Shown: in pieces, positions 47,168-64,000 of the stretch
Layout: each line of letters begins with the position of its first letter
Position numbering within the stretch: the stretch's first letter is position 1
NCBI RefSeq assembly: GCF_022352215.1
Contig: NZ_JAKRWF010000007.1
Location: forward strand, 24,291-88,290
Source of the DNA: Flavihumibacter cheonanensis
GTDB taxonomy: Bacteria; Bacteroidota; Bacteroidia; Chitinophagales; Chitinophagaceae
Reading direction: 5' to 3'
Length of the DNA: 64,000 nucleotides
The notes under the pieces: generated by a model
Told to the model about the DNA's origin: nothing
Seen by the model: only the letters and a program-made list of their open reading frames with translations
Databases searched by the model: none
Translations under genes and position numbers: made by a program

Positions 47168-47172
47168 CAATT

Positions 47173-47700
47173 ATGTATACACGAATCGCCACCGCCGCTG
47201 ATGTTGACATCATTGTAAATTTTTATCAGCAGTTGCAGGAAGCAACCCGCCGATTGTATGCTCCGCATTCGATGGATCGGGAAAGCCTGCAGCAGCAGAT
47301 AGCTGACCCTGCGCACCTGATGCTCCTAACCTTTGTGGAAGAGGAGCTGGCGGGTTACCAGGTTTTTCTCAAAGGTGCTTTTCCCTGGGAGCGCGATCGC
47401 TATATGCAATATGGAATGGCGATTCACCAGGAGACAGCTTCCTATGCCCCTGTATTGGGAGATGGATACCAGGGCAGAGGAGCAGGTACTCTCATGTTAA
47501 CGCAAGCCCTTCCCTACCTTAAAGATGCAGGGATCACGCGATTGATCCTATGGGGTGGCGTTCAGTGTGCCAATATCCGCGCAGTGAATTTCTATCTGAA
47601 AAATGGATTCCGGATTGTCGGGTATTTCGAATGGGAGGGCGCCAACTATGATATGATCAGTACAATTGATGGTTCCCATAATCGCCCCGCTTCTCAGTGA
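47173..47700 (+). CDS. GNAT family N-acetyltransferase
   Basis: A single GNAT domain spans the protein. The acetyl-CoA-binding motif A reads VLGDGYQGRGAGTLMLTQAL (about residues 95-115), preceded by a beta-strand with AGYQVFLKGAF and followed by AVNFYLKNGFRIVGYFEWEG, the usual end. The substrate is unknown. The 3' end overlaps the converging sulfatase gene by 44 bases. It starts five bases after the methyltransferase gene. Confidence 0.9.
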   Translation: MYTRIATAADVDIIVNFYQQLQEATRRLYAPHSMDRESLQQQIADPAHLMLLTFVEEELAGYQVFLKGAFPWERDRYMQYGMAIHQETASYAPVLGDGYQGRGAGTLMLTQALPYLKDAGITRLILWGGVQCANIRAVNFYLKNGFRIVGYFEWEGANYDMISTIDGSHNRPASQ

Positions 47701-49165: not shown

Positions 49166-49244
49166 GTCAAAAGTTTGGTGAAAAAGATAGCCATTAATTC
49201 CGAAAATGCGATCTCTTTCGGTTGAAGGGTGTATTTTAGAGGGT

Positions 49245-50288: not shown

Positions 50289-50313
50289 ACGCGCTGGTCA
50301 GCCGGAAAAGCCC

Positions 50314-50321
50314 TATTTTTG
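50314..50321 (+). promoter_or_regulatory. Predicted -7 element upstream of the outer-membrane protein gene
   Basis: TATTTTTG lies in the word CCCTATTTTTGCGCTC, which recurs almost identically (CCCTATTTTTGCACTC) before tRNA-Asn. It would give a 5' leader of about 100 bases for the gene at 50431. Confidence 0.45.
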
Positions 50322-50406
50322 CGCTCGCTTCAGCTGGAACCCATTGCCGGCTGTGGTTTTTAATAACATTAACAACGTGAAGGGAGGACCCTGGCAGTCC
50401 AACCGA

Positions 50407-50414
50407 TAGATTTG
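50407..50414 (+). promoter_or_regulatory. Alternative -7 element close to the outer-membrane protein gene
   Basis: TAGATTTG matches TAnnTTTG and lies 16 bases before the ATG at 50431, so a transcript from here would have a very short leader. Confidence 0.35.
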
Positions 50415-50430
50415 CGCTTTATCAACTAGT

Positions 50431-51210
50431 ATGAGAAAAATTTCAGCCGTTTTGTCTGCCCTCCTGCTGACCCTGGCAGTTCAGGCTCAGACGGATTCCA
50501 CAGTAAAAAATCCAGCTGCCCCCATACCTGCCATCAAGGAAAAAGTATCCAAACCGAAAAAAGACTGGAGCAAGGTAAAAATAGCCAACCGTGCGAATGA
50601 TCATTTCATGTTCCAGTTTGGTTATGATACCTGGACCCAGGTGCCCGATTCGATCCGGCTGACCGGCATAGGCAGACACCTGAATATTTACCTGATGATG
50701 GATTTCCCCTTTAAGGTGGATCCCCGCTTCAGTGTTGGAATTGGTGTAGGCATAGGATCCAGCAATATTTTCTTTGACAAACACGATGTGCAGATTGCGG
50801 GGAATAGTCCGACACTGGCCTTCCGCAACCTGGCAGATACCAACCATTTTAAAAAGTACAAACTGGTAAATGTTTGGGCAGAAGTACCGGTAGAACTGCG
50901 TTTTGCAGCTAACCCGGAGAACACCAACAAGAGCTGGAAATTTGCGGTGGGTGCGAAAGTGGGAACCATGCTGAATGCCCACACCAAGGGAAAGAACTTC
51001 CAGACCAAATCCGGAAGCGCCATCAACAATTACACAGAGAAGATCAATTCCAGGCGTTATTTCAATGCGTTGCGGATAGCAGCTACCGCCAGGATCAGCT
51101 ATGGACCATTCGGGATCTTTGGCTCCTACCAGGTGAATACCCTGATCAAGGACAACCAGGGACCGCCTGTGCACCCGATGTCGGTGGGATTAACGATCAG
51201 CGGACTCTGA
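50431..51210 (+). CDS. Outer-membrane beta-barrel protein (porin-family type)
   Basis: The signal peptide (ISAVLSALLLTLAVQAQT) is followed by a Pro/Lys-rich linker (residues 25-50), then alternating amphipathic strands with aromatic residues (FMFQFGYDTWTQVPDS, FSVGIGVGIGSSNIFF, WKFAVGAKVGTML) and a C-terminal strand ending SVGLTISGL. This matches small eight- to ten-strand outer-membrane barrels of Bacteroidota. No enzymatic motif is seen, and its role is unknown. A strong terminator follows the stop within 25 bases. Confidence 0.8.
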   Translation: MRKISAVLSALLLTLAVQAQTDSTVKNPAAPIPAIKEKVSKPKKDWSKVKIANRANDHFMFQFGYDTWTQVPDSIRLTGIGRHLNIYLMMDFPFKVDPRFSVGIGVGIGSSNIFFDKHDVQIAGNSPTLAFRNLADTNHFKKYKLVNVWAEVPVELRFAANPENTNKSWKFAVGAKVGTMLNAHTKGKNFQTKSGSAINNYTEKINSRRYFNALRIAATARISYGPFGIFGSYQVNTLIKDNQGPPVHPMSVGLTISGL

Positions 51211-51231
51211 TATAAATAGATTCATAAGAAC

Positions 51232-51257
51232 GCGGGCCCCCTGGCCCGCTTTTTTTG
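51232..51257 (+). terminator. Rho-independent terminator
   Basis: A perfect 7-bp GC-rich stem (GCGGGCC 51232-51238 with GGCCCGC 51243-51249) with loop CCCT is followed by eight T. It ends the outer-membrane protein transcript. Confidence 0.92.
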
Positions 51258-51260
51258 TGC

Positions 51261-51268
51261 TAATTTTG
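51261..51268 (+). promoter_or_regulatory. Predicted -7 element of hflX
   Basis: TAATTTTG matches TAnnTTTG and lies just after the terminator and 31 bases before the hflX start. No -33 TTTG at the usual distance is evident because the terminator occupies that region. Confidence 0.45.
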
Positions 51269-51299
51269 CCGACCTGAGCAACATCTTAATAAAAGCGAA

Positions 51300-52511
51300 T
51301 TGATAGAAAAAAAGCAGATAGCAGAAAATGAACGCACCGTACTGGTGGGAGTGGTACAGAAAGATCAGAATGAGCAGCAGGTCACGGAGTACCTGGATGA
51401 ACTGGCTTTCCTGGCCGAAACAGCAGGTGCGGAAGCTGTGAAACGATTTACACAGAAACTGGCGCATCCCGACAGCAAAACCTTTGTAGGTAAAGGAAAG
51501 CTGGAAGAGATTAAAGATTATATCACCGGAAGGGATATCAACCTGGTCATATTTGATGATGAGCTGACCGGCTCGCAGATCCTCAATATTGAAAAAGCAT
51601 TAGGGGTGAAAACCATTGACCGCTCGGATCTGATCCTGGACATATTTGCGCGGCGTGCGAAAACTGCGCAGGCCAAAACCCAGGTGGAGCTGGCGCAGTA
51701 CCAGTACCTCTTACCCCGCCTCAAAGGGATGTGGAAACACCTGGAACGCCAGGGAGGTGGAATTGGAACCAGGGGTCCGGGTGAAACTGAAATTGAAACG
51801 GACCGCCGGATTGTGAAGGAGAAAATCGCGCTCTTACGGAGGCGGTTAAGCGAAATAGACAAGCAATCCTTTACCCAGCGCAAGGATCGCGGGGAGTTTA
51901 TCCGGGTGGCCCTGGTGGGCTATACCAACGTAGGGAAAAGCACCCTGATGAATATCCTGAGCAAGAGTGAAGTATTCGCGGAGAACAAATTATTTGCAAC
52001 GCTGGATACCACCACACGAAAAGTAGTATTTGACACCACTCCCTTTTTGTTAAGTGATACTGTAGGATTTATCCGGAAGTTGCCCCACCACCTGGTAGAA
52101 AGCTTCAAAAGCACGCTGGATGAAGTGCGCGAGGCAGATATTCTGTTGCATGTGGTGGACTTATCGCATCCGCAATATGAGGATCAGTTCAATGTGGTGA
52201 ATAAAACTCTGCAGGAACTGAAGGTAACTGAGAAGCCGATGATCACGATCTTCAACAAGCTGGATCAGTATGAGAAGAATGTGTTTGATGAATGGCTGGA
52301 GCCCGAGGTGAAGACCCAGATCCTGGAAGAGTTGCGCGAGCGTTGGGAGAACAATACCCAGGGCAACTGTGTGTTTGTATCTGCGATTGAGCGCCGGAAC
52401 CTGGAGGGCTTGAGAGCCACGATTCTGAATAAAGTGAGGCAGTTGTACCGGGAGCGCTATCCTTATAAAACCGAGTTCTTCGGAACCTTCCAGGCGAATG
52501 AGGGAGAATAA
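51300..52511 (+). CDS. hflX: Ribosome-associated GTPase HflX
   Basis: The N-terminal HflX domain (about 20-190, with DSKTFVGKGKLEEI and GTRGPGETEIETDRR) is followed by the GTPase domain: G1 GYTNVGKST (about residue 207), G3 DTVGF and G4 NKLD. HflX splits stalled 70S ribosomes under stress. The only plausible start is a TTG at 51300 (IEKKQIAENE follows, as in relatives). The 3' end overlaps the Rieske protein gene by 14 bases, so the two are coupled. Confidence 0.95.
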   Translation: MIEKKQIAENERTVLVGVVQKDQNEQQVTEYLDELAFLAETAGAEAVKRFTQKLAHPDSKTFVGKGKLEEIKDYITGRDINLVIFDDELTGSQILNIEKALGVKTIDRSDLILDIFARRAKTAQAKTQVELAQYQYLLPRLKGMWKHLERQGGGIGTRGPGETEIETDRRIVKEKIALLRRRLSEIDKQSFTQRKDRGEFIRVALVGYTNVGKSTLMNILSKSEVFAENKLFATLDTTTRKVVFDTTPFLLSDTVGFIRKLPHHLVESFKSTLDEVREADILLHVVDLSHPQYEDQFNVVNKTLQELKVTEKPMITIFNKLDQYEKNVFDEWLEPEVKTQILEELRERWENNTQGNCVFVSAIERRNLEGLRATILNKVRQLYRERYPYKTEFFGTFQANEGE

Positions 52512-52821
52512 CTGGATAAAGATTGCCGAATCCGTTGAGGAGCTGCGCTTCAGTGGCAACCAGATCGCGTTAGCGGAGCTGGAAGGAAGGCCAATCTGCA
52601 TCGGGCGGTATAAGGAAAAGCTGTTTGCGTTTGCGCATAAATGTCCGCATGCCAGCGGGCTGTTTGCAGAAGGATTTATTGATGCATTAGGGAATGTCGT
52701 ATGCCCCTTACATAGGTACCGGTTTAATATGGGTACCGGTAGAAATGTTTCAGGTGAAGGGTATTACCTGAAGCACTGGCCGGTGGAGGAAAGGGAAGAT
52801 GGGGTGTATGTGTGGTGTTAG
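52498..52821 (+). CDS. Rieske [2Fe-2S] ferredoxin-like protein
   Basis: This 107-residue protein has the Rieske ligands in C49-P-H51 and C69-P-L-H72, with the fold seen from IALAELEGRPICIG to the end. It is soluble and lacks a membrane anchor, so it resembles dioxygenase-type or nitrite-reductase-small-subunit-like ferredoxins. Its redox partner is not in the window. It overlaps the end of hflX by 14 bases. Confidence 0.92.
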   Translation: MRENNWIKIAESVEELRFSGNQIALAELEGRPICIGRYKEKLFAFAHKCPHASGLFAEGFIDALGNVVCPLHRYRFNMGTGRNVSGEGYYLKHWPVEEREDGVYVWC

Positions 52822-52923
52822 CAAAATTCTAATTGTATTCTAATCGATCTTTAAAACTTTGGTAACACGCACATTGTAGTTTGTTCACATACGAAACACA
52901 TTTTCGTCGAACAAATCACACAC

Positions 52924-53529
52924 ATGAGCTGGACCGAATCTCTCATTCAACTGGATTATACCATTTTCAAATTTATACAAAGCACCGGGGTATCTAATTT
53001 CATGGATCATTTCATGCTGGGCATGCGGGAAGCCAAACTCTGGATCCCTTTTTATGCCTTCATGTTGTACTGGATCTGGAAGAATGCAAAGTCAAAAATG
53101 CTGGTATTCATCCTGTTAACAGTAGCGAGTTTTGGATTGGCTGATTTCAGCAGTGCGTCCCTGTTCAAACCTTTTTTCGCGCGTGAGCGTCCCTGTTATG
53201 AGGACGATCTCGAGGGGGTAGTGCGCTCCCTGGTAGGTTGTGGCGGCAAATATGGATTTCCTTCTTCCCATGCCAGCAATCATTTTGCATTGGCGACCTT
53301 CTGGTACTGGGCCATTTATATGATTAAGGGGCAGCGCTGGTATTGGTTGTTCCTGTGGGCTTTCCTGATCGGCTATGCGCAGATTTATGTAGGCAAACAT
53401 TATCCCATTGATATATTGGGAGGAGGATTATTGGGTATCTTTATCGGAACCGCGATGGCCAAACTCTTTGAGTACTGGGATAACCGGAAGAGAAGGATGG
53501 CCAACCCGGATACCGTACCCCTACCCTGA
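52924..53529 (+). CDS. PAP2-family membrane phosphatase
   Basis: All three PAP2 motifs are present: KPFFARERP (KxxxxxxRP, about residues 80-88), PSSHA (about 118-122) and YVGKHYPIDILGG (about 159-171) containing the catalytic His and Asp. Five or so membrane helices surround them. Such enzymes remove phosphate from lipid-linked substrates, for example undecaprenyl diphosphate or phosphatidylglycerol phosphate, at the outer face of the inner membrane. The gene lies 14 bases before the GT39 gene, another lipid-carrier enzyme. Confidence 0.93.
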   Translation: MSWTESLIQLDYTIFKFIQSTGVSNFMDHFMLGMREAKLWIPFYAFMLYWIWKNAKSKMLVFILLTVASFGLADFSSASLFKPFFARERPCYEDDLEGVVRSLVGCGGKYGFPSSHASNHFALATFWYWAIYMIKGQRWYWLFLWAFLIGYAQIYVGKHYPIDILGGGLLGIFIGTAMAKLFEYWDNRKRRMANPDTVPLP

Positions 53530-53543
53530 TTAATCTTTATTAC

Positions 53544-55232
53544 ATGACGGATTTTTTGTCGCCGGTCCGCTGGCGGTCCTGGTATATTGCCCTGGTGGTA
53601 GCAGGTATCCTGGTAAACCTGTTGGGATTACACAGTAGCATCCTGGAGCCGGATGGCGCCTTGTATGCAAGCATAGCCAAAACGATGGTATTAAAAGGGG
53701 ATTGGGTGAATTTGTATGCCCATAACCGCGACTGGCTGGACAAGCCCCATTTTCCTTTCTGGATGACGGCCATCAGTTATTCAATTTTTGGCATTAATGA
53801 GATCGCATATAAGATTCCGGCATTGGTATTCTGGGCGCTGGGGGGATGGTATACTTTTCAGATCGGCCGCAAGCTTTATTCCGAGCAGGTAGCGCAGGTA
53901 GCGTTACTGATTTATTTGACAGCCCTGCATTTGGTGATCTCCAATAATGATGTGCGGGCCGAGCCTTATCTGACGGGACTGTTGGCGGGCTGTGTGTATT
54001 ATTGGTTGCCTAGTTCACCGGACGGGTGGCACCGGACGGGTAGAGTGTTGCTGGGAGCTTTGTTTATGGCGGCGGCGATCATGACCAAGGGTATTTTTAT
54101 CCTGATACCGGTGGTGGGTGCCTTTCTCTTGCACTGGGCATTGAACGGGCAGTTGAAAGCGGAACTGAGTAAACCGAAATGGTGGATCGCGCTGGGGCTG
54201 GTGGGGGTTTTCATCTTGCCGGAATTGCTAACCTTGTATTGGCAGTTTGATCAACATCCGGAGAAAGTAGTATTTGGGAGGACGGGGGTATCGGGCTTGC
54301 GGTTTTTCTTCTGGGACAGCCAGTTTGGAAGGTTTATGAATACCGGGCCGATCAAAGGCAAGGGTGACCCAAGTTTTTTCCTGCATACCTTGTTATGGGC
54401 CTTTTTACCCTGGTCGATATTGTTGTATATCGCCATGTGGGAGAAAATAAAGGGCCTGGTGCGAAGAGAAAAAGGAGAATGGGTGTTGCCGGGGATATCG
54501 CTGATCTGTTTTTTATTGTTTTCGGCATCGCGGTTTCAGTTGCCGCATTATATGAATATCGTGTTTCCCTTCTTTGCGATAGTGACGGCGGACTGGCTCC
54601 TGCGCCAGGATGTGGAGAGTAAAAAGATCCGGGTGTTGGGAGGCATACAAGTGGGTATTTCTATATTGTTACTTGCAGGATGTATTGGATTATGGGGATT
54701 AATGTACCTGACGAATTTCAGTCCCCTGGTGTATGTATTATCCATGGCGATCATCTGGAACCTGTTAAGGAAAAAAACAGCCACTTATGGCTTTGGCTTA
54801 CCCGCGCGGATGGTATTAAGTACCAGCCTGGCGGCGATTACGCTCTATGGATTTTTGAACCTTTATTTTTATCCGGCCTTGTTGCAATATCAGTCGGGCG
54901 AGCAGGTAGCCAAACAGGTGAATCAGCAGCAACCCGGCAAACGCATTTATCAAACCAATCCACTCTCCTATTCACTGGATTTTTATTCGGATGGGCCTGT
55001 ACGTTATACCGATCGTGCGGAGGTAATCAGTGCAGCAAAAGACAGTGCGGTATTGTATTATAGTACCAGAGAGCAGCGCGATACATTGGTAACGATGGGC
55101 ATACCGGTGCAGGTGGTGGACAGCTTTCCGCATTATCATATCTCCAAATTGAAGATCGGGTTTTTAATGCCGGATAAAAGACCGAAGTATTTGCAGTATC
55201 GGTATTTGATGGAAGTAGGTCCGAAGCCTTAG
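53544..55232 (+). CDS. GT39-type (ArnT-like) membrane glycosyltransferase
   Basis: The protein has about eleven membrane helices and the GT-C signature in the first loop (LEPDGALYASIAKTMVLKGDW, cut before the conserved DWLDKPHFPFWM), typical of dolichol- or undecaprenyl-phosphate-sugar-using transferases such as ArnT. It transfers a sugar at the periplasmic side to lipid A or another acceptor. In the loop near residue 158-167 the coding sequence carries two tandem 14-bp repeat units (54016-54043) encoding SPDGWHRTGRV, a probable in-frame insertion. The 3' end overlaps the converging dehydrogenase gene by four bases. Confidence 0.88.
   Translation: MTDFLSPVRWRSWYIALVVAGILVNLLGLHSSILEPDGALYASIAKTMVLKGDWVNLYAHNRDWLDKPHFPFWMTAISYSIFGINEIAYKIPALVFWALGGWYTFQIGRKLYSEQVAQVALLIYLTALHLVISNNDVRAEPYLTGLLAGCVYYWLPSSPDGWHRTGRVLLGALFMAAAIMTKGIFILIPVVGAFLLHWALNGQLKAELSKPKWWIALGLVGVFILPELLTLYWQFDQHPEKVVFGRTGVSGLRFFFWDSQFGRFMNTGPIKGKGDPSFFLHTLLWAFLPWSILLYIAMWEKIKGLVRREKGEWVLPGISLICFLLFSASRFQLPHYMNIVFPFFAIVTADWLLRQDVESKKIRVLGGIQVGISILLLAGCIGLWGLMYLTNFSPLVYVLSMAIIWNLLRKKTATYGFGLPARMVLSTSLAAITLYGFLNLYFYPALLQYQSGEQVAKQVNQQQPGKRIYQTNPLSYSLDFYSDGPVRYTDRAEVISAAKDSAVLYYSTREQRDTLVTMGIPVQVVDSFPHYHISKLKIGFLMPDKRPKYLQYRYLMEVGPKP
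54016..54047. repeat. Tandem copy of the dispersed 14-bp unit inside the GT39 gene
   Basis: CACCGGACGGGTGG (54016-54029) is followed directly by CACCGGACGGGTAG (54030-54043) and AGTG. The unit also occurs as the right arm of the palindrome at 26166. It is read in frame in the GT39 protein. Confidence 0.75.
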
Positions 55233-56278
55233 GCCTCCATATCAACCATAGCTTTAATGACTCCGTTTGAAGGATTGGAGAGAGATTTAAACTGCTCTGC
55301 CAGTTCGGTAAACGCAATGCGGTGCGTAATATAATTAGCCGGTTGAATGAGATTCGACTGCAGCGAGCTGATCACCCAGTTGAAATCATCCCTTGTTGCA
55401 TTTCGGCTACTCATCAACGTGGATTCGCGTTTGTGAAATTCGGGGTGTGAAAAAGAGAAAGCTTGTTTCTGCAAACCAACCAGTACGAACCGTCCGCCGT
55501 GGGCGAGAAATTGCAGTCCGCCTTCAATAGCGTTAAGATTACCGGTAGCATCAAAAACCGCGGTGGCCATATCTCCCTTTGTGATATTTCTAATTGCTTC
55601 CACAGCATCCTGTTCTTTCGGGTTGATGGTATGCTGAATACCGAGCTGTTGTTTACAAAATTGGAGTCGCGCTGCGTTGACATCCATCGCGATAACAGAA
55701 GCACCTGTGAGTCGCGCCATTTCCATAAGTCCGAGCCCAATAGGACCTGCACCAATCACCAGGATATATTCACCGGCCTGGAGGCTGGCTCTTCTAACTG
55801 CGTGGGCGCCGATGGCCAGGGGTTCAACGAGGGCTAGTTGATCGGGGCTCATATTATTGCCCTTGACCAGGGCGGATACGGGAACCTGGATAAATTGGCG
55901 AAGGCCGCCATCGATATGGACACCGAAGACCTGGATGGAGGAGCAGCAATTGGGTTTATTGGATCTGCAGGCGATGCAGGAGCCGCAACTGAAATAAGGG
56001 ATCAGGGTTACCAGGTCGCCGGGTTGGAAATTATGGGGATTGACTGCCATTTGGGGAAGCTCCACAATTTCGGCGCAGATTTCGTGGCCAAGGATACGGG
56101 GGTATTGGAAGAAGGGTTGGGTACCCTCGAAAGCGTGGAGATCGGTACCACAGATACCGACCTGTTTGACCTTGAGCAGGGCGGTTGGGGTGTTAGTGGA
56201 AGGAGGTGTCGGCTCCAGTTGATCCTGCCGGTAAAGAAAGGATCCGGGTTGGTCGCAAATAAGGGAAGAGTATATCAT
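55229..56278 (-). CDS. Zinc-dependent alcohol/polyol dehydrogenase
   Basis: This is a medium-chain dehydrogenase with the catalytic zinc ligands in VGICGTDLH and GHEICAE, a structural four-Cys zinc cluster (CGSCIACRSNKPNCC) and the NAD-binding motif VIGAGPIGLGLMEM. The type resembles sorbitol/L-idonate/threonine dehydrogenases; the substrate is not evident. Position 56278 is the only ATG that keeps the N-terminus. It converges with the GT39 gene and overlaps it by four bases. Confidence 0.93.
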   Translation of the reverse strand: MIYSSLICDQPGSFLYRQDQLEPTPPSTNTPTALLKVKQVGICGTDLHAFEGTQPFFQYPRILGHEICAEIVELPQMAVNPHNFQPGDLVTLIPYFSCGSCIACRSNKPNCCSSIQVFGVHIDGGLRQFIQVPVSALVKGNNMSPDQLALVEPLAIGAHAVRRASLQAGEYILVIGAGPIGLGLMEMARLTGASVIAMDVNAARLQFCKQQLGIQHTINPKEQDAVEAIRNITKGDMATAVFDATGNLNAIEGGLQFLAHGGRFVLVGLQKQAFSFSHPEFHKRESTLMSSRNATRDDFNWVISSLQSNLIQPANYITHRIAFTELAEQFKSLSNPSNGVIKAMVDMEA

Positions 56279-56343
56279 ATAAAGTTGATATGCAAACTAC
56301 TAAGAATATGGGGGTGGGGGGCAGGAAATTTTCATTTAAAAAT

Positions 56344-56373
56344 TTTGTACCAATGCAAAAATCCCTATTTTTG
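56344..56373 (+). promoter_or_regulatory. Predicted promoter of tRNA-Asn
   Basis: TTTG (56344-56347) and TATTTTTG (56366-56373) are separated by 18 bases, close to the Bacteroidota primary sigma consensus. The tRNA starts 43 bases downstream. Confidence 0.6.
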
Positions 56374-56415
56374 CACTCCCCAAAAGGGAAACCGGCCTGG
56401 TTTAAAAAGGCAACT

Positions 56416-56489
56416 TCCTCCTTAGCTCAGTTGGTTAGAGCATCTGACTGTTAATCAGAGGGTCGCTGGTTCAAGTCCAGCAGGGGGAG
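56416..56489 (+). tRNA. tRNA-Asn (anticodon GTT)
   Basis: A 74-base cloverleaf folds cleanly: acceptor TCCTCCT/AGGGGGA with one T-G pair, D arm GCTC/GAGC, anticodon arm TCTGA-CTGTTAA-TCAGA, T arm GCTGG-TTCAAGT-CCAGC and discriminator G. CCA is not encoded. It lies 550 bases before a tyrosine recombinase, a common setting for integration sites, but no copy of its 3' end is seen later in the window. Confidence 0.95.
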
Positions 56490-56491
56490 CG

Positions 56492-56525
56492 AAAAAAGCA
56501 GCTACAACAAGTAGTTGCTTTTTTA
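56492..56525 (+). terminator. Terminator after tRNA-Asn
   Basis: GCAGCTAC and GTAGTTGC (with one mismatch) pair across a five-base loop and are followed by TTTTTT; the left side is A-rich, so it could act in both directions. Confidence 0.75.
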
Positions 56526-56671: not shown

Positions 56672-57003
56672 ATAGGTTTCGAAATCAATCCAAGCAACTA
56701 TTTTTCTTCTGAAACTTCCGCAAAGCAATTCAGGCCTTACGCGAATACAATCAATTCATCCAGGACAATCAGTGGAGGAAAATTCTAGTTACTGAATTTA
56801 TAAAAAACTATTGATAAAACATCTCTTAACCCTTGCAAAGTTGCCCGGAATATTTTATGTTTAGGCACTTATCCTTTGATCCCTGAAATGGGACTCAGGT
56901 GGCGAAGCATTGGCAGCCAGCCAACAACCCAAAAGCCCATCTAAAAGAAAACCGTGTTTTAGCTGAATTTTTTTGAAGTACGTACAGGAATAACCTTGAT
57001 TTA

Positions 57004-57023
57004 CTAGCTTGTTGAACAAGTAG
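57004..57023. promoter_or_regulatory. Palindrome upstream of the recombinase start
   Basis: CTTGTTGAACAAG (57008-57020) is nearly symmetric, and outer CTA and TAG extend the symmetry. It lies 15 bases before the ATG and could be an operator, possibly bound by the recombinase itself. Confidence 0.4.
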
Positions 57024-57038
57024 AGAAAATGTGGGGTT

Positions 57039-58319
57039 ATGAAAAATGCAAGTGGGCTTGGCCATGAGGAGAAATGGGAATTGGTATGGGTTCGTCAGAT
57101 TTACCTTTCGGGTATGCATCACCGGGGGGCTGATCGGATCGCCCTATATTTCCCGGATGATCGGGTACTACTAACAATCTTACGACCGTTAGGAATTCAG
57201 TGGTCCAGGACCCACAGATGTTGGTATGGGCCGATGAGTGCAGTGTGGTTCCGGCGATTAGAGGAGTTGGTAGGCGATAGGCTGGGTTTAGACCGCCAGG
57301 CATTGGATCTATTTCTGCAAAAAAAGGTAGTACCGGAGGAGTTGCAGGAAGCGATTCGTGTGGCTAGCAATGAAAAACCGGAAGGGATAGCCGAATTACC
57401 GCCACCGGCACAACAAACCAGATCGTACTTACCCAAAAGCCGGTTATCGCTAGAGAATCAGCAGGCCCTGGAAGCAACGAAAAGGGAATTGATATTAAAG
57501 GCGTATAGTCCCAGTACCATTCGGACCTATTTAAATGAACTAGGAGTTTACTACCATACATTAGGAAAGCATCGGGCAGATGAAATGACTGCCGACCGGA
57601 TCAAAGATTACCTGGCTTATTGTTTTACGGAGTTGAAGTTAAGTGAGCATACGATCCATAGCCGGATCAATGCATTGAAGTTTTATTATGAGCAGGTATT
57701 GAAGCGGGAGCGGATGTTTTTTGAGATTTCGCGGCCCAAGAAACCCTCTCAGTTACCCAAATTATTAAATGAGGATGAGTTAGCCCGCTTGTTCAATGCA
57801 TTAGAAAATCGCAAGCACAAGGCGATGTTGTTTACGATTTACAGTGCGGGGTTGCGGGTAAGTGAATTGGTACGATTGAAGTTAGGAGATATTGATGCGA
57901 ACCGGATGCAATTATTTGTGGAGCGGGCGAAAGGGAAGAAGGATCGGTATGTGAATTTGAGTCCGGTTTTGCTGGACATTTTGCGGAAGTACATTCAGCT
58001 ATTGGACAAGCGCCCGAAAGAATACTTATTTGAATCAGAGCAGACGGGAACCGCTTACTCCACCCGAACGGTTCAGGAGATCTTTCACCAGGCGAAGCAG
58101 CGGGCGGGCATCATGAAGGAGGTTGGTGTACACAGTTTGCGCCACAGCTTTGCGACACATTTGCTGGACAAAGGTGTGGATATCCGTTACATCAAAGATT
58201 TGCTGGGTCATTTCAACATCAAAACAACGGAGCGGTACTTGCATGTAAGCAAGAAGCAGTTGGTAAATATTATTAGTCCGTTTGATGATTTAATCCGTCG
58301 CGGCGGTGTGGAATGGTGA
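57039..58319 (+). CDS. Tyrosine recombinase next to cassette array, with unusual N-terminal domain
   Basis: Three parts are visible. Residues about 25-95 form a small extension (RIALYFPDDRVLLTILRPLG then WSRTHRCWYGP); about 140-225 is the SAM-like core-binding domain (AYSPSTIRTYLNELGVYYH); about 245-405 is the catalytic domain with R273 (GLRVSEL), a Lys near 298-301 (AKGKKDR), H365-S-L-R368, H391 (LLGHF) and nucleophile Y400 (ERYLHV). All catalytic residues are intact. Between the Lys and HxxR there are only about 65 residues, with no room for the patch III insert of integron integrases, so by sequence it is XerC/D-like. It lies 290 bases upstream of the first cassette, in the same orientation. 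Confidence 0.93.
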   Translation: MKNASGLGHEEKWELVWVRQIYLSGMHHRGADRIALYFPDDRVLLTILRPLGIQWSRTHRCWYGPMSAVWFRRLEELVGDRLGLDRQALDLFLQKKVVPEELQEAIRVASNEKPEGIAELPPPAQQTRSYLPKSRLSLENQQALEATKRELILKAYSPSTIRTYLNELGVYYHTLGKHRADEMTADRIKDYLAYCFTELKLSEHTIHSRINALKFYYEQVLKRERMFFEISRPKKPSQLPKLLNEDELARLFNALENRKHKAMLFTIYSAGLRVSELVRLKLGDIDANRMQLFVERAKGKKDRYVNLSPVLLDILRKYIQLLDKRPKEYLFESEQTGTAYSTRTVQEIFHQAKQRAGIMKEVGVHSLRHSFATHLLDKGVDIRYIKDLLGHFNIKTTERYLHVSKKQLVNIISPFDDLIRRGGVEW

Positions 58320-58320
58320 A

Positions 58321-58460
58321 AGGGGAAGGGAAGAATGGAGAAAAGGGGGAAAGGAGGAAAGGAAAACGGAGGAAAGGAAAACAAAAGACAAGATACGGGA
58401 AACAGGATACAGGAGGCGGGATACAGGATACGGAAAAAAGGAGACCGCAAACGGGAAACA
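58321..58460. repeat. Polypurine spacer after the recombinase gene
   Basis: A/G-rich simple sequence with repeated words (GGAGGAAAGGAAAA, then GGATACAGG and GGATACGG). It is similar in kind to 17492-17575 and 42311-42379. No coding frame is credible. Confidence 0.6.
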
Positions 58461-58481
58461 ATTAAATAGGCAAACAATTCA

Positions 58482-58612
58482 CCTCAACGCGCCCCCACCC
58501 CAAAATTGTATTGGCGCAACCACAATCCGCCTCAACGCGAAGAAGGTGATTGATAATGAGGCATTTAATTTTTAACGAACTTCGTCTAATTGCGTAAATA
58601 AACGCGTTATCG
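58482..58612 (+). other. Candidate attI-like primary recombination site
   Basis: The first cassette joins non-cassette DNA at the G|TT of GTTATCGG (58606). To its left are two direct repeats CCTCAACGCG (58482-58491 and 58530-58539, 48 bases apart) and, at the junction, the palindromic octamer AACGCGTT (58601-58608), the complement of the same word. Classical attI sites also have a junction core plus two direct repeats. No attC-type palindrome precedes the first cassette. Confidence 0.55.
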
Positions 58613-58650
58613 GTAACTCTATGACAACACATCTAACATATAGACATACA

Positions 58651-59694
58651 ATGAAATTTCACATAACAATCTTCTTAAGCATATTGACAGTTTTGACATC
58701 GTGCAACGGTCAGTCCTCTTATCAAAAAGGTAACAGTGACCAATTTTTAAAAGGTGACACGGTAAAAGAACTCGGCAGTAACATAATGGTCGTTTATCAA
58801 GACAAGAAAAATATTTATTGGTTTGGAAGTTGGGAAACAGGAGTTTATAGATATGATGGAACGAAATTGATTAATTACACAACAAAGCACGGTTTGCCAA
58901 ACAATAGAGTTGATGAAATACAACAAGATGAATCTGGCAATATATACTTCGCCAGCTTTTATCCAAAGCCGACCATTGTTAAGTTTGACGGAAACACATT
59001 TACAACATTAGCTCCAATTCCCAGCAATGATTGGCAACTTACATCCATAGATTTATGGTTTAAACATACCTACGATTTAGAAAATTACGTTTATCGGTAT
59101 GACGGCAAAACTTTACATAAATTGCAGTTGCCTGAGCCACCAAATCTGCCCAATCCTTTTGGAGTCTACAGTATTTATAAAGACATAAAAGGCAATATTT
59201 GGTTTGGCACAAACCCTGTTGGTGTTTGCCGATATGATGGAAAATCGTTTGATTGGATAACCGAAGAAGATGTGACCGAATTTCGTAACGAGGGAGCAAA
59301 CGGTGTGCGTTCTATTACGGAAGATAAAAATGGTGACTTTTGGTTCAATACCGAAAACCGTTATAGTATTTACGACAACATAACATTAAAAAGCAATAAG
59401 TTTTATACAAGACACGAAAGCATAGGCAGTTTGGATGGAATAAAGAACAGCAATTTGGACGAATATCTATCAACAGTGAGAGATGACAATGACAATTTGT
59501 GGTTTGTAACCTATCTTGATGGAGTTTGGAAATACGATGGAGCGAATGTCATACATTATCCTGTTCAAGATAATTCCAAAAACATAACTTTATTCAGCAT
59601 TTACAAAGATAATAAAGGCCACCTATGGCTTGGAACACACGAAAACGGAGCATTTAAGTTTGACGGGAAAACATTTAATAGATTCGCACTATGA
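58651..59694 (+). CDS. Cassette 1: lipoprotein with two-component-regulator-type propeller repeats
   Basis: The ATG at 58651 gives a lipoprotein signal (FLSILTVLTSCNGQ); an in-frame ATG ten codons upstream would add polar residues. The rest is a run of about six propeller-blade repeats of the Reg_prop kind, with motifs such as NIYWFGSWETGVYRYDG, NIWFGTNPVGVCRYDG, NLWFVTYLDGVWKYDG and HLWLGTHENGAFKFDG. In Bacteroidota such blades form the sensor part of hybrid two-component systems; here they stand alone on a lipid-anchored protein. No kinase or regulator part follows. The function is unknown. Confidence 0.85.
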   Translation: MKFHITIFLSILTVLTSCNGQSSYQKGNSDQFLKGDTVKELGSNIMVVYQDKKNIYWFGSWETGVYRYDGTKLINYTTKHGLPNNRVDEIQQDESGNIYFASFYPKPTIVKFDGNTFTTLAPIPSNDWQLTSIDLWFKHTYDLENYVYRYDGKTLHKLQLPEPPNLPNPFGVYSIYKDIKGNIWFGTNPVGVCRYDGKSFDWITEEDVTEFRNEGANGVRSITEDKNGDFWFNTENRYSIYDNITLKSNKFYTRHESIGSLDGIKNSNLDEYLSTVRDDNDNLWFVTYLDGVWKYDGANVIHYPVQDNSKNITLFSIYKDNKGHLWLGTHENGAFKFDGKTFNRFAL

Positions 59695-59711
59695 CTGACG
59701 AAAGAAGAGCT

Positions 59712-59847
59712 ACCGATAACATAGCATTGGCAAAATAGGGGGCAGACGTGGGGAAATGAGCATTGGCAATTCTAGTCATCATTGTATCTTTAACCAGGCA
59801 GACGTGCAAGGAATCCCCCTACTTCGCCAATGCTTTGCCCGTTAGTG
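59712..59847 (+). repeat. attC-like site 1 (between cassettes 1 and 2)
   Basis: Outer boxes ACCGATAAC (59712-59720) and GTTAGTG (59841-59847). The arm starting AGCATTGGCAAAATAGGGGG (59723-59742) pairs with CCCCCTACTTCGCCAATGCT (59816-59833 region) over about 20 positions with two mismatches. Both inner flanks carry GGCAGACGTG. Length 136. Confidence 0.9.
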
Positions 59848-59865
59848 GCAATCAGAAACCCTCCA

Positions 59866-60432
59866 ATGGAAACACCCAAAGAATTTGAAATACTCATACG
59901 TCAAAAAATACCTATAGTGAGTAGTTTTCTTTACGGCCTTATGATTTTCCTTTTTGTTTTTTTATTCATATTTTATGTGGTTATGTATCCAGCGACAAAC
60001 TCTAAGTCTTCGTCGGAGATGCAGACCGCATATTACATTTTAATAGTTCCGAATTCATTTAAAGTATTATCGTCCTTTTCGTTTATCGGACTTCTTATTG
60101 TTGTGCCTCTTTACTATCGGTCAAGACTGCACAAACCTGCCATTTTACTATTTGAGGAAAAGAGCGTTTTAATTACTGGAAAGAAAATCAGCATTGACAT
60201 TCCAAAACGACATATCAAGACGGTTTACTGCAATGATTTAAAAAATGCTTTTGGAGAGCCTAAAGAAAAATTGCAAGTCGTGATACGGCAAAATACTCAC
60301 AAAAACACCACATTTAGGCTGAAGCACTATGAACAGGGAGGTGAGTTAATTGATGTATTAAGTACCTTAGAAAATGTGGAAATTGTTGGCTATCAAAATG
60401 AAATGTTGGGTGACCACCAAGAGGACGAATGA
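59866..60432 (+). CDS. Cassette 2: two-helix membrane protein of unknown function
   Basis: The ATG at 59866 lies 19 bases after the cassette boundary; an in-frame ATG at 59830 is inside the attC site and is not credible. The 188-residue protein has two membrane helices (about residues 17-40 and 62-85) and a basic soluble C-terminal part (KPAILLFEEKSVLITGKKISIDI, read in parts) that looks like a pleckstrin-like beta sheet followed by a helix (EQGGELIDVLSTLENV). I do not recognise the family. Confidence 0.8.
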   Translation: METPKEFEILIRQKIPIVSSFLYGLMIFLFVFLFIFYVVMYPATNSKSSSEMQTAYYILIVPNSFKVLSSFSFIGLLIVVPLYYRSRLHKPAILLFEEKSVLITGKKISIDIPKRHIKTVYCNDLKNAFGEPKEKLQVVIRQNTHKNTTFRLKHYEQGGELIDVLSTLENVEIVGYQNEMLGDHQEDE

Positions 60433-60433
60433 C

Positions 60434-60630
60434 TGCCACTAACAGAGCAGTTTGGCGCTAGTGGGGCGGACGGGTCAAGGATGAGCGGCAGAAATTAAAT
60501 CGGCATCAATTTCAACGGATAGTCTCTATTAGGCTCTTTTAAGTAAAAATCAATAGTAAATCAATAATCAGCGGTAGTACAGGCGGACGAACATAAATTC
60601 CCCACCATCGCCAAGCTGCCGCCGTTAGGT
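60434..60630 (+). repeat. attC-like site 2
   Basis: Outer boxes TGCCACTAAC (60434-60443) and GTTAGGT (60624-60630). Inner arms GCAGTTTGGCGCTAGTGGGG and CCCCACCATCGCCAAGCTGC pair with few mismatches. GGCGGACG occurs in both halves. Length 197; clearly similar to site 3 over its whole length. Confidence 0.9.
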
Positions 60631-60688
60631 GCAAGTTAACCCGACCACCCGAAAATCGACCATAAACAAGTAATGACTTAAAATTAAA

Positions 60689-61183
60689 ATGAAAGACTTA
60701 AATTATTTCGTTGACAAATACAAAGAGCAACTTGAAAAAGGTGACATTCAAGAAGCATATGTTGGACTTGTTAAATATGTAACAAGACTTGGAACAAATT
60801 TATCAAACAACCTTGCAGACGCATATTCATTCGGAAGTCTTTTTCAAGGTTATATGGACTATACATATTTTTATTACACAAACGACTTTTTAAAAAAGAG
60901 AAAGCTGAAAATGGGACTTGTACTGAACCATAGAAAAATGCAGTTTGAAATTTGGCTGTTAGGACAGACAATCCCAATTCAAGAAAAATATTGGGAATAC
61001 TTTAAATCGACAAAGTGGAATAAAGAAAGAACAACAAGACCTCAATATTCAATTCTTGAAACAGTGCTAATTGACAAGCCAAACTTTAACGACTTGGATA
61101 AACTATCAAAACAAATAGAGAATAAATTAATTTCTATTACAGACGAAATAATTGAAGATATAAAAAAAAGTAAATTGACATAA
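60689..61183 (+). CDS. Cassette 3: small soluble protein of unknown function
   Basis: A 164-residue, lysine-rich, largely helical protein without signal peptide or membrane segment. Visible features are an N-terminal helix (YFVDKYKEQLEKGDIQEAY), a central aromatic segment (YMDYTYFYYTNDFLKKRK) and a C-terminal helix (ISITDEIIEDIKKSKLT). The pattern GLVKYVTRLGTNLSNN is reminiscent of small cassette-borne proteins, but I cannot assign a family. The start lies 59 bases after the cassette boundary. Confidence 0.8.
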   Translation: MKDLNYFVDKYKEQLEKGDIQEAYVGLVKYVTRLGTNLSNNLADAYSFGSLFQGYMDYTYFYYTNDFLKKRKLKMGLVLNHRKMQFEIWLLGQTIPIQEKYWEYFKSTKWNKERTTRPQYSILETVLIDKPNFNDLDKLSKQIENKLISITDEIIEDIKKSKLT

Positions 61184-61197
61184 ATAAAATAAAAACC

Positions 61198-61397
61198 TGC
61201 ACCTAACAGTGCAGTTTGGCACTAGTGGGGCGGACGTGATAAGCAACCGGCAGTAGAATATAACCAGGCATCAGTTTTAGCGGAAGAATAAAATGAACCT
61301 TAGGTAATTTAAATTCAACAACAGATGAATAATTAGCGGTAGTTATGGGCGAGCGGGTTTCAAGTTCCCCACCATCGCCAAGCTGCCGCCGTTGCCT
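61198..61397 (+). repeat. attC-like site 3
   Basis: Outer boxes TGCACCTAAC (61198-61207) and GTTGCCT (61391-61397). Arms GCAGTTTGGCACTAGTGGGG and CCCCACCATCGCCAAGCTGC pair; the right arm is identical to that of site 2. Length 200. Confidence 0.9.
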
Positions 61398-61415
61398 GCA
61401 ATCAATTCAGACACC

Positions 61416-62063
61416 TTGAAACTGCAAAGACCATTAAAAGACAAAGAGCTAAAAATCCTTGACAAGCGACTAAACCAGTTAGACAGGAACTTCAAAAGTC
61501 AAAAGCGGTTCTTGTTTTTCTGGACACTGCTTGTTTTTGTTGTTGGCACTTTCGCATACTTCAAAATGGACTCGACAAGTAAGGTGCTTCTTTTAGTTGC
61601 AACTGTGGTCATTTACATTGGAATTGGTGCTTGGGTGACCGGCAAGGAATACCTGAAACAGCAGAAAGAGAGAAAAAGTATTGCCTTTTTAAAAAACAAG
61701 AACCTTGTGACAGTCGTTGAGGTCAACTCCGACTTGTATTATGAACTGAAAGAGCATGAGGACGAAGGCGTTCATTACCTTTTTCAGCTTCCAGACAACA
61801 AAGTTTTCTCATTTGGCGGTCAAGACTTTTATCCAAATAGAAAATTTCCGTCCGACAAATTTGAAGTTGTGGAGGGGCGTGGGCTGAATAACGAAATTCT
61901 TCTATTGGAGACATTCAGCTATGGTAAGAAAATAAAGCCAACACGGGTAATTGCAGGACAAGAGAAATGGAACTTACTAAACAACTCTAACTATCCAGAC
62001 CCAGAGAAGTTGACTGTTGTTGACGGAAGGATTGAAGATTATTTACAAGTAGCTGCCACATGA
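61416..62063 (+). CDS. Cassette 4: two-helix membrane protein of unknown function
   Basis: No ATG is available near the 5' end. A TTG at 61416 (25 bases after the boundary) or one at 61392, inside the GTT box itself, would start the frame; I prefer 61416. After a basic N-terminal helix (KELKILDKRLNQLDRNFKSQ) come two membrane segments (about residues 35-55 and 62-82), then a cytoplasmic or periplasmic domain of about 120 residues with the motif GVHYLFQLPDNKVFSFGGQD. The family is not recognised. Confidence 0.75.
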   Translation: MKLQRPLKDKELKILDKRLNQLDRNFKSQKRFLFFWTLLVFVVGTFAYFKMDSTSKVLLLVATVVIYIGIGAWVTGKEYLKQQKERKSIAFLKNKNLVTVVEVNSDLYYELKEHEDEGVHYLFQLPDNKVFSFGGQDFYPNRKFPSDKFEVVEGRGLNNEILLLETFSYGKKIKPTRVIAGQEKWNLLNNSNYPDPEKLTVVDGRIEDYLQVAAT

Positions 62064-62073
62064 CGACTTTAAC

Positions 62074-62210
62074 TGCAGGCAACATGGCATTTCTGCAATA
62101 GCGGCTGAAGAATAAGTGCTGAACAATTGTAATTCTATTTAACTAACCAATAAATTTAAGCTGACGAAACATTAATTTCCGCTACTGCAGAAATGCCTGT
62201 TCCGTTGGTA
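62074..62210 (+). repeat. attC-like site 4
   Basis: Outer boxes TGCAGGCAAC (62074-62083) and GTTGGTA (62204-62210). Arms GGCATTTCTGCAATAGCGG and CCGCTACTGCAGAAATGCC pair with one mismatch. The GGCGGACG word of the other sites is weaker here (GCGGCTGAAG, CTGACGAA). Length 137. Confidence 0.9.
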
Positions 62211-62218
62211 GCAATGCT

Positions 62219-62938
62219 ATGACAGACCTCGATACTATAGCAAAACTGAACGACTACGAAGACGAAGACATCTTTGACGTCGTTGTAAAACTTGAAAAGT
62301 CATTCGGCATGAAGTTCAACAGGGACGCATTCATCCATATCAAGACATTTGGCGACCTGTGCGACGTGTTTGAAAACCACACTAACTACGAAAATCGTGA
62401 CGACTGCACTAAACAGCAAGCTTTTTATCGAGTTCGTGAAGCTATTGCTTCGACACAACAAATGAGCCGTGACAATATCCAGCTTGCCACTAAACTTTCA
62501 GACCTGTTTCCAAGTCGTGACCGTCCGCAAAAAGCAAAGAAATTCAAAAGGGCTGTTGGCATAGACATTAAAATCTTGACCTATCCAAGCTGGCTTGCAT
62601 TGACATTTGCACTTGTTTTTTTATTGTCACTTGGTGCTTTATTCTATGAATGGAAAATTGCGGTGAGTGGAATTGTACTTTTCATAACGGCTATCAAGAT
62701 TGCTGAAAATTTGGGCAACACTTTAGTAATCTCAACCGTTCATGAGTTGACAGAGAAATTAGCAAGAGAACATTACGTTGACGTTAGACGAACAAAAGGA
62801 ACATACAACAAGCAGGAACTTTTACAAACCATCATTGACACGTTTAGTAACGACCTTGCAATTGAAAAGGCTTACCTGACGAGAGACGCAACATTCAGTT
62901 GGACAAAAAGCACTGCTACCAACAAAAGTATTGGCTAA
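62219..62938 (+). CDS. Cassette 5: membrane protein with acyl-carrier-protein-like N-terminus
   Basis: The 239-residue protein starts 15 bases after the boundary. Residues about 10-55 (DEDIFDVVVKLEKSFGMKF, then IHIKTFGDLCDVFE) resemble an acyl carrier protein fold but lack the DSL motif and serine for phosphopantetheine, so it would be an inactive look-alike. Two membrane segments follow (about 125-145 and 146-165), then a soluble helical part. The stop codon lies inside the attC site, so the last residues (ATNKSIG) are encoded by it. Confidence 0.8.
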   Translation: MTDLDTIAKLNDYEDEDIFDVVVKLEKSFGMKFNRDAFIHIKTFGDLCDVFENHTNYENRDDCTKQQAFYRVREAIASTQQMSRDNIQLATKLSDLFPSRDRPQKAKKFKRAVGIDIKILTYPSWLALTFALVFLLSLGALFYEWKIAVSGIVLFITAIKIAENLGNTLVISTVHELTEKLAREHYVDVRRTKGTYNKQELLQTIIDTFSNDLAIEKAYLTRDATFSWTKSTATNKSIG

Positions 62939-63113
62939 AGCAGGGCGGGACGAGGAAACTTCAACAGTAGATCATTGATGAGCATATGTCCAGGCTGGTC
63001 ACGATTTCTATTAGGCTATTGGAATTATAAATGAACATTTGTAAATATAATATCGGTTGGCCGAGCGGGCCGTTAGTAATGCCCCTGCCTTCGCCAATAC
63101 CTGAACGTTGTAG
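62914..63113 (+). repeat. attC-like site 5
   Basis: Outer boxes TGCTACCAAC (62914-62923) and GTTGTAG (63107-63113). Arms AGTATTGGCTAAAGCAGGG and CCCCTGCCTTCGCCAATACC pair with few mismatches. The left half overlaps the end of the cassette 5 gene. Length 200. An additional CCGTTAGTAATG word lies at 63070-63081. Confidence 0.9.
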
Positions 63114-63132
63114 GCAACCTTAGATACAGACC

Positions 63133-63660
63133 ATGAATGGAATAAGCATCCTCTTTATTTTCCTGATTTTACTATTAGCAATTGTCTTCATAGTTGGGAT
63201 AATCATTTTGTTTGTAGGTCTTTTAAAAAAAGATAAAAGAAATTCAACTACAACGAAAGGGCTCATTTTTATGAGTATTCCAATAGGGATAGTTGCTATT
63301 GTTATTCTTTACGAATTTTCGCATGACAAGTTCACTAAAAAACCTACGGATAAAGACCTTGTTGGCGTTTATCATATCACTGACGCAAATAGTCTTATTT
63401 CAACTAACCAATATCATTCATATACTCTTGAATTCAAAAATGACGGGACATTTTATTTAACACCAACACCAAATATAAATGTCTGTGAAACTGGGAAATA
63501 TTTTGTTGACTGGCAATTCAAGTTTAATGAACTTTCCTTTCAGTGTGACAAAGGGTTTACAACAGCTCATATTGACAGAAATTTTTCAGGATATAGAATA
63601 GAATTTATTGTTGGCGACCCAGATAGCGGAGAAAGTATTTTTTTCAGTAAAGAAAAATAG
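63133..63660 (+). CDS. Cassette 6: two-helix protein with lipocalin-like C-terminal domain
   Basis: The 175-residue protein has two membrane segments at the N-terminus (about residues 3-30 and 40-60). A soluble beta-rich domain follows from KDLVGVYHIT to the end, with FKNDGTFYL, ETGKYFVDWQFKFNELSF and GESIFFSK, a pattern like small lipocalin-type domains in Bacteroidota. The start is 26 bases after the cassette boundary. No family was recognised with certainty. Confidence 0.8.
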   Translation: MNGISILFIFLILLLAIVFIVGIIILFVGLLKKDKRNSTTTKGLIFMSIPIGIVAIVILYEFSHDKFTKKPTDKDLVGVYHITDANSLISTNQYHSYTLEFKNDGTFYLTPTPNINVCETGKYFVDWQFKFNELSFQCDKGFTTAHIDRNFSGYRIEFIVGDPDSGESIFFSKEK

Positions 63661-63677
63661 TTCTAGCGTGAAAAGGC

Positions 63678-63881
63678 TGCCTACAACATTGGTATTTGCA
63701 AAAGCTGGGCGGACGGAAGCCTTGATTCAACTTTTTGTTTTTCAATTTGGCTTCATATCGGGCAGGCGAATAACTATTTAGCTATGTGCAAACCATCAAC
63801 TTTCATTTAAAAATTTAGCTTAAGGTAGCCGGGCCGACGGAAGTTTATTCCCCAGCCTTCGCAAATACCTGGCCGTTAGCG
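63678..63881 (+). repeat. attC-like site 6
   Basis: Outer boxes TGCCTACAAC (63678-63687) and GTTAGCG (63875-63881). Arms GGTATTTGCAAAAGCTGGG and CCCCAGCCTTCGCAAATACC pair with two or three mismatches. Direct repeats GGGCGGACGGAAG and GGGCCGACGGAAG lie in the two inner halves. Length 204. Confidence 0.9.
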
Positions 63882-63909
63882 GTAATTCAACGCCGGCTGT
63901 ACACGTGTT

Positions 63910-64000
63910 ATGGTGTCGGTGGTTGCCCTAACTTTTAAATCAAAAGGTCCTTTTAAGTTGGCCCGGAACAATTGCTTCAGCTTGCTAAGCCGGACAAAAT
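63910..64000 (+). CDS. Cassette 7: beginning of an open frame, cut by window end
   Basis: The ATG at 63910 lies 35 bases after the cassette boundary and opens a frame (MVSVVALTFKSKGPFKLARN) that runs to the window edge. Thirty codons are too few to assign a family, so this is a guess based on position in the cassette. Confidence 0.45.
   Translation, partial: MVSVVALTFKSKGPFKLARNNCFSLLSRTK

Follow-up and report, generated by a model that had tools for sequence, protein, structure and literature searches.

A probable integron-like gene-capture platform beside an I2-less tyrosine recombinase in Bacteroidota

The 64,000-nucleotide stretch of Flavihumibacter cheonanensis DNA analysed here (the window; contig NZ_JAKRWF010000007.1, positions 24,291 to 88,290) closes with a run of small genes, each followed by a long palindrome, and so raises the question of whether this genome holds an integron and what moves its cassettes. 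A sequence-only reading had called the run an integron-type gene cassette array. That reading stands as to the layout, the pairing of each cassette start with the box of its own site and the break points at G|TT, but the array does not fit the published definition of an integron: the adjoining tyrosine recombinase, which that reading missed, lacks the insert specific to the integron integrase IntI (I2), the sites are mostly without extrahelical bases, and no IntI over the cut-off is present in the genome. We consider it quite probable that the locus is an integron-like capture platform, in which this recombinase likely joins cassettes at an attI-like site by way of folded single-strand hairpins, the strand being predicted to be chosen through wobble pairing and not through extrahelical bases.

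The cassette array and traces of its movement

The insertion point of the first cassette is an attI-like core, CGTAAATAAACGC|GTT (58593-58608, plus strand). All 1221 GTT triplets of the window were compared with any downstream reverse complement of at least 9 bases no more than 1600 bases away. Six of the 15 matches form a head-to-tail chain of exact 10-mers, in which the first ten bases of each cassette match the left box of its own site: 58606 with 59711-59720, 59841 with 60434-60443, 60624 with 61198-61207, 61391 with 62074-62083, 62204 with 62914-62923 and 63107 with 63678-63687. The remaining nine are scattered (seven 9-mers, one 10-mer at 47107 and one 12-mer within a gene at 61508). The boxes of 9-10 bases first reported are thereby confirmed as 10-mers in all six cassettes, chained from 58606 to 63687, as are the six palindromes in a single orientation, each behind one open reading frame; from R'' to R' these measure 140, 200, 203, 140, 203 and 207 bases, in place of the 136-204 first claimed.

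All cassettes and sites lie on the plus strand, and each of the six complete cassettes has its R-box pair. Cassette 1 (58607-59841) carries a two-component regulator propeller gene (58621-59694; Reg_prop, PF07494, 1.1e-24) ahead of its attC-like site at 59711-59850, and cassette 2 (59842-60624) a gene at about 59872-60432 with no Pfam match (site 60434-60633). Cassette 3 (60625-61391) holds a DUF7000 gene (60689-61183; PF22526, 6.5e-65; site 61198-61400), and cassette 4 (61392-62204) a gene that ends at 62063 and has no family over the cut-off (site 62074-62213). In cassette 5 (62205-63107) the gene at 62219-62938 has an N-terminus weakly like acyl carrier protein, under the cut-off (site 62914-63116), and in cassette 6 (63108-63875) the gene at 63133-63660 has no family (site 63678-63884). 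The cassette genes (58607-63875) are thus mostly orphans, the DUF7000 and Reg_prop genes being the exceptions, and PADLOC found no defence family among the six. The first part of a seventh cassette (63876-64000) follows the R' box GTTAGCGGTA at 63875-63884; the array is truncated at 64000 because the window ends there with its contig (C219), so that this position is not the end of the array for which it had been taken.

The same organization recurs in other loci that carry a relative of the recombinase. Over 36 loci (35 and the window), 58 of 68 internal junctions follow the rule that a cassette start is complementary to its own box, one mismatch being allowed; with a random partner, 5 of 68 do. 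The longest open reading frame runs along the direction of the site in 82 of 89 cassettes (median 835 bp). The arrays are therefore made of one-gene cassettes in one orientation, and the sites have the features of attC: AAC and GTT boxes, a palindromic stem and a cassette start complementary to the site's own R''.

Several cassettes have left traces of movement. One locus (L126) holds two copies of a cassette that are 100% identical over 475 bp, with unrelated flanks and borders running from CGTTACATG to CGTT, and another (L104) holds three copies at 96% and 93% identity, from CCGTT to CCGTT. Among 11 repeat pairs in 13 stretches, both ends fall at GTT in three (one in L126, two in L104) and the 3' end alone in one (L271); two start inside a similar preceding site (L029, L104), and the other five do not amount to whole cassettes. 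The closest relative is a Flavipsychrobacter sp. metagenome-assembled genome (L084), whose recombinase is 91% identical to that of the window; as the nearest named relative it supports the earlier assignment to a Bacteroidota chromosome. In blastn the two are colinear over 47015-56498, a block that takes in a tRNA-Asn (GTT) gene upstream of the platform (56416-56490, plus strand; ARAGORN, Rfam), and over 56801-58616; homology ends at the attI-like core, beyond which L084 has another first cassette, with an R box of its own. Beforehand, the agreement of boxes with break points in related genomes had been set as a test, and in the one close relative compared the break lies at G|TT. A gene order fixed across genera was not seen, and a search for cassettes common to several genomes gave one weak pair only (30% identity) among the 89. 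The duplications and the swapped first cassette are probably traces of excision and integration.

Recombinase, attI-like motif and one-way array occur together across Bacteroidota

Sites were sought with a covariance model (R2) built from 27 sites of the source genome after a pattern search; an arms-only model without the loop (R1) was replaced because it missed long-loop sites. R2 recovers all six window sites at 56-69 bits (56.3, 61.4, 63.3, 61.3, 69.0 and 68.5, from site 1 to site 6), but all six belong to its training sites. Covariation in the stems of the 27 scores 0.498, against 0.143 when shuffled, and none of 500 shuffles reached the observed score. The first site of L084 (R'' TACCGCTAAC), behind its first cassette, is a much shorter hairpin that R2 misses, and counts made with R2 are therefore lower bounds.

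Eighty loci that encode a relative of the recombinase were taken, together with flanks of up to 10 kb; 78 of these loci bear Bacteroidota names. R2 finds 98 sites in 35 of these loci, and all 98 point away from the recombinase. The sites lie 3' of the gene on its strand in 26 loci and upstream of it, divergently, in nine; neither of the other two geometries occurs, and the flanks on the other side of the recombinase serve as an internal control. The motif that precedes the first junction (CGTATATTTATGA|GTT in several loci) occurs on the array side of 20 of the 27 A-type loci, the window included, and in 7 of 9 B-type loci, where shuffling expects 1.1 and 0.3, and on the opposite side in 1 of 27 and 0 of 9. 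It is also found in 22 loci without detected sites (2.6 expected), and these matches are independent of the derivation of the motif. Motif and junction together place on the array side, at the level of sequence, the attI that an integron has beside its recombinase gene.

The divergent layout, which is the classical one, is confined to one part of the recombinase tree (L134, L137, L138, L144, L147, L149, L151, L154 and L158); in the rest of the tree the gene points toward the array, and the motif is much alike in both. One of these loci (L138) comes from a record labelled Phycisphaerales (Planctomycetota), which would reflect either a mislabelled bin or a transfer.

Within the family, sites occur in 29 of the 32 genomes that encode a close relative of the recombinase and in 17 of 32 that do not (Fisher p 0.0017; the source genome, G000, was left out and 32 of the 65 recombinase-less genomes were taken). 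These genomes overlap with the named loci and are not independent of them (for example, G008 is L084 and G104 is L126). Long unbroken arrays follow the recombinase gene in G104, G116 and G123. Isolates that possess an array include Cnuella takakiae RG1-1, Paraflavisolibacter caeni LB-8 and Pedobacter jejuensis TNB23. Across the phylum, as defined in GTDB, 36 of 148 genomes hold such sites (E <= 1e-4, strict filters), and the system is not rare. Relatives of the recombinase at E <= 1e-60 number at least 4788 proteins, a figure counted by sequence and not by array adjacency. Where names are given among the 120 relatives listed, they are XerD, integrase or tyrosine-type recombinase and never integron integrase; a search keyed to IntI would therefore likely miss these enzymes.

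In the source genome R2 finds 42 sites at E <= 1, of which 40 also pass E <= 0.001; 27 of its matches are the training sites. The matches spread over eight contigs, and several of them lie at contig ends. These sites, about 40, represent either one long array that breaks the assembly or several arrays. Inside a cassette array on one contig (C230; L032:9019-11140, minus strand) is an IS91-type transposase accompanied by a tyrosine recombinase of its own (311 aa); the element lies directly behind an R' box (GTTGAACTAA) and may use or mimic a cassette site. This recombinase (Rec2) was considered as the array integrase and rejected because it lies directly upstream of the IS91-type transposase (Zn_Tnp_IS91, Y2_Tnp) within the array.

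An I2-less recombinase and the fold of its sites

The recombinase of the window (57039-58319, plus strand, 426 aa; PF13495 and PF00589) consists of an N-terminal domain of about 110 residues, a SAM-like domain and a catalytic domain. IntI is defined by an additional domain, as stated in PMC9668308, and PMC3053210 describes the I2 helix of IntI as contacting the extrahelical base G20''. The window recombinase carries no such domain around patch III. It matches TIGR02249 at 187.7 bits, under the cut-off of 265 and in two separate pieces that leave positions 183-238 unmatched, and the distance from its K box to its HxxR box is 61 residues (58-62 in the others), compared with 98-101 in IntI. The insert of about 40 residues is absent from all 31 measurable array-linked recombinases, four too-short ones having been dropped (L120, L122, L135, L140) and three array-linked ones being unmeasurable. 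The distance was also measured in 41 of the 43 relatives that have no detected sites; it is 58-62 residues in 40 of these and 279, a pattern artefact, in one. The AlphaFold2 model shows no helix between 321 and 342. The catalytic R, K, HxxR, H and Y (Y400 in the window protein) are invariant in 13 aligned recombinases.

In its SAM-like and catalytic domains without I2 the protein has the make-up of Xer and XerA recombinases, and it scores 214.1 bits against NF040815, slightly below the cut-off of 220. Archaeal XerA (4a8e, 5hxy) and Xer recombinases give its best fold matches and are among its best sequence matches, with no insert in either. These enzymes act at single dif-type sites and are not known to be attached to cassette arrays. 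The N-terminal domain (window 57090-57370) is partly conserved in the 13 aligned relatives (HRG...WS.TH.CWY.P) and has no family match; the fold comparison barely probed it (about residues 18-110), the match list having been filled by the other domains. PF22823, which is listed for homologs, did not turn up in the scan.

The sites depart from attC in a corresponding respect. None of the six window sites has a bulge of 1-2 bases on its R''-L'' arm, where the attC of an integron has two or three extrahelical bases, and the arms of the stems are mostly equal in length. Such bulges are found in 6 of 37 sites of the source genome and 5 of 98 sites of its relatives, versus 38 of 39 in a Vibrio array; in IntI-linked sites of the same phylum they are found in 19 of 22 (five loci; 22 of 24 sites folded). 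Because the first finder and R2 favour unbulged stems, the count was repeated on sites found by their R boxes alone. Here 14 of 93 distinct sites bulge, against 16 of 16 IntI-linked sites from the phylum and 34 of 34 from Vibrio (Fisher 4.4e-26; same phylum only, 2.4e-11). The comparison sites number 50, of which 34 come from one Vibrio plasmid and 16 from three phylum loci, and L126, which lies inside L270/L271, was counted once. A strict finder of canonical sites returned next to nothing even at IntI loci; a loosened version worked when checked on Vibrio.

One irregularity is fixed in these stems, a 1x1 mismatch; on the top strand the bases of column pair 27/208 do not pair in 24 of the 27 sites, nor do those of pair 24/211 in 16 of 27. 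The commonest mismatch is A opposite C on the top strand, which is G.T on the bottom strand. Computed stability favours the bottom strand in 82 of the 93 sites (by a mean of 1.82 kcal/mol), and it does so in every one of the six sites of the window; among IntI-linked sites it does so in 6 of 16 from the phylum and 15 of 34 from Vibrio, 21 of 50 in total. We infer that strand polarity, which integrons owe to extrahelical bases, here resides in the wobbles.

In the mechanism that we propose, the recombinase would bind the hairpin of the bottom strand (about 19 bp; an A.C of the top strand is here a G.T), cut at the R box and exchange one strand with attI. The junction would then be resolved by replication or by a second exchange, and host XerC/XerD might help in the recombination. 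Excised circles would consist of one gene and its site and would re-enter at attI. The system most likely works like an integron, since relatives of the recombinase flank one-way arrays, an attI-like motif stands at the first junction, and breaks fall at G|TT in some duplicates and in the nearest relative. It is not an IntI integron: the insert is absent, no IntI scores over the cut-off and few extrahelical bases are present.

Alternative explanations and the origin of integrons

Several observations weigh against the platform as we describe it. No site was detected in 45 of the 80 loci; 38 of these end less than 2 kb from the gene on at least one side, and the other seven have more than 3 kb on both. 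Sites are present in 17 family genomes that have no close relative of the recombinase, and sites or arrays stand without such a relative in the fetched stretches L265 (G091), L267 (G035), L268 and L269 (both G034) and L274 (G088), which resemble clusters of attC lacking integrases. The attI-like motif was derived from the same A and B loci in which it was counted. As to the fold, 14 of the 93 sites bulge on the R''-L'' arm and 20 on the other arm, and 27 of 120 chained sites were excluded for a weak stem. A.C or C.A accounts for only 53 of 122 mismatches in the source genome's own sites and 156 of 358 in those of relatives, while 19 and 68, respectively, are G.T on the top strand instead. Finally, kinship of this clade to IntI is neither shown nor excluded (approximately unbiased (AU) test, p 0.44).

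That last point bears on the alternative which survives best, namely that the system descends from ordinary integrons which lost the I2 insert and the extrahelical bases. This is compatible with a working capture platform, and we regard it as possible, if on the doubtful side. An IntI integron such as the Vibrio superintegron or class 1 likewise has its recombinase beside an attI-like site, a one-way array of single genes, a variable R box common to the cassette start and its own attC, and a GTT junction; the shared R-box logic, junction and layout all speak for descent. Set against it is a tree of 112 of 131 rows (every second viral row), in which 12 IntI form one clade (SH-aLRT 99), 77 Bacteroidota-type recombinases form another (96) and no I2-less row falls inside the IntI clade; the IntI root is a choice, and the IntI sample is small and leaves out archaeal IntI. 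The grouping of IntI and this clade as sisters was not rejected in the AU test, made on 80 rows with four long-branched rows left out and rows without sites thinned. The data are thus compatible with loss, with an older state retained and with a separate origin.

It is also conceivable, but we think it unlikely, that host XerC/XerD perform the chemistry at the folded sites, with the neighbouring recombinase as no more than a helper or a marker of the locus. CTX phage offers the precedent, in which I2-less recombinases act on a folded single-strand site without extrahelical bases, as described in PMC4792948; there it is a phage genome that is integrated by host enzymes, with no cassette array or platform. 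The recombinase beside the array retains every catalytic residue, however, and it adjoins the array in both gene orientations.

A slightly more improbable account is that an ordinary IntI elsewhere moves the cassettes, the array being an attC cluster lacking integrases and the recombinase beside it incidental. The arrays found without a recombinase fit this account, as do the 84 of 296 phylum genomes in which IntI exceeds the cut-off. No IntI does so, however, in the source genome or in any of the 34 array-bearing genomes (35 loci), and the one-way geometry and the attI-like motif are found beside this recombinase. Of 86 phylum genomes with any IntI match, 85 are marked as members of other classes and one (G052) as a member of the window's order. 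Five genomes of other classes have both IntI and R2 sites (G168, G173, G182, G184 and G260; L285, L286, L287), always on different contigs; one stretch of G184 and one of G173 pair a rec1-like gene with the sites, and a second stretch of G173 has sites without it. Conversely, R2 gives one weak match (L295, 26 bits) on 11 fetched IntI loci of the phylum, five of which supplied the IntI-linked sites with bulges in 19 of 22, and none on the Vibrio array. That the sites are dispersed palindromic repeats (REP- or MITE-like, or terminators) merely lying behind genes is extremely improbable, for although they are palindromic, intergenic and numerous, cassette starts pair with their own left boxes, R boxes chain, and duplicated units consist of gene plus site and end at GTT.

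The platform that we favour thus differs from an IntI integron in a recombinase without I2, whose clade is separate from that of the 12 IntI rows tested, and in sites mostly without R''-L'' extrahelical bases, whose polarity would sit in the A.C/G.T positions. Treponema integrons share with the window a recombinase transcribed toward attI, along the cassette direction, but have IntI (PMC3607928), whereas here a single I2-less clade shows the gene in either orientation. With the extrahelical bases deleted in both sites, IntI1 is reported in PMC2727003 to lose attC x attC deletion altogether, while the drop in attI x attC integration is only about six-fold. Bacteroidota are among the integron phyla in the review PMC8618304, and the account of IntegronFinder 2.0 (PMC9024848) gives one complete integron in Bacteroidetes proper (Salinibacter ruber), besides Chlorobi and Ignavibacteriae. 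Among the matches listed in a search of literature titles and abstract openings, with preprints outside its scope, there was no integron with an I2-less recombinase and there were no such arrays in Bacteroidia.

The system thus most likely works like an integron and yet falls outside two defining integron features, the I2 domain and the extrahelical bases. It likely represents another route by which a gene-capturing integron can be built. Whether Bacteroidota evolved, or kept from pre-I2 times, a separate integron with a Xer-grade recombinase, folded single-strand cassettes and strand choice in G.T wobbles, which would make it either a living pre-I2 form or a second invention of the integron, is a proposition on which we are evenly divided. 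Escudero et al. 2016 (PMC4792948) see in the joint emergence of the I2 domain and extrahelical bases a chicken-egg paradox explicable by intermediary forms; in their proposal the first step was an I2-like domain, which then made room for single-strand sites. A system that combines cassette arrays and R-box logic with few extrahelical bases and no I2 points to an order other than I2 first, and it lets the order of origin of I2 and extrahelical bases, and with it the question of how integrons arose, be tested in E. coli.

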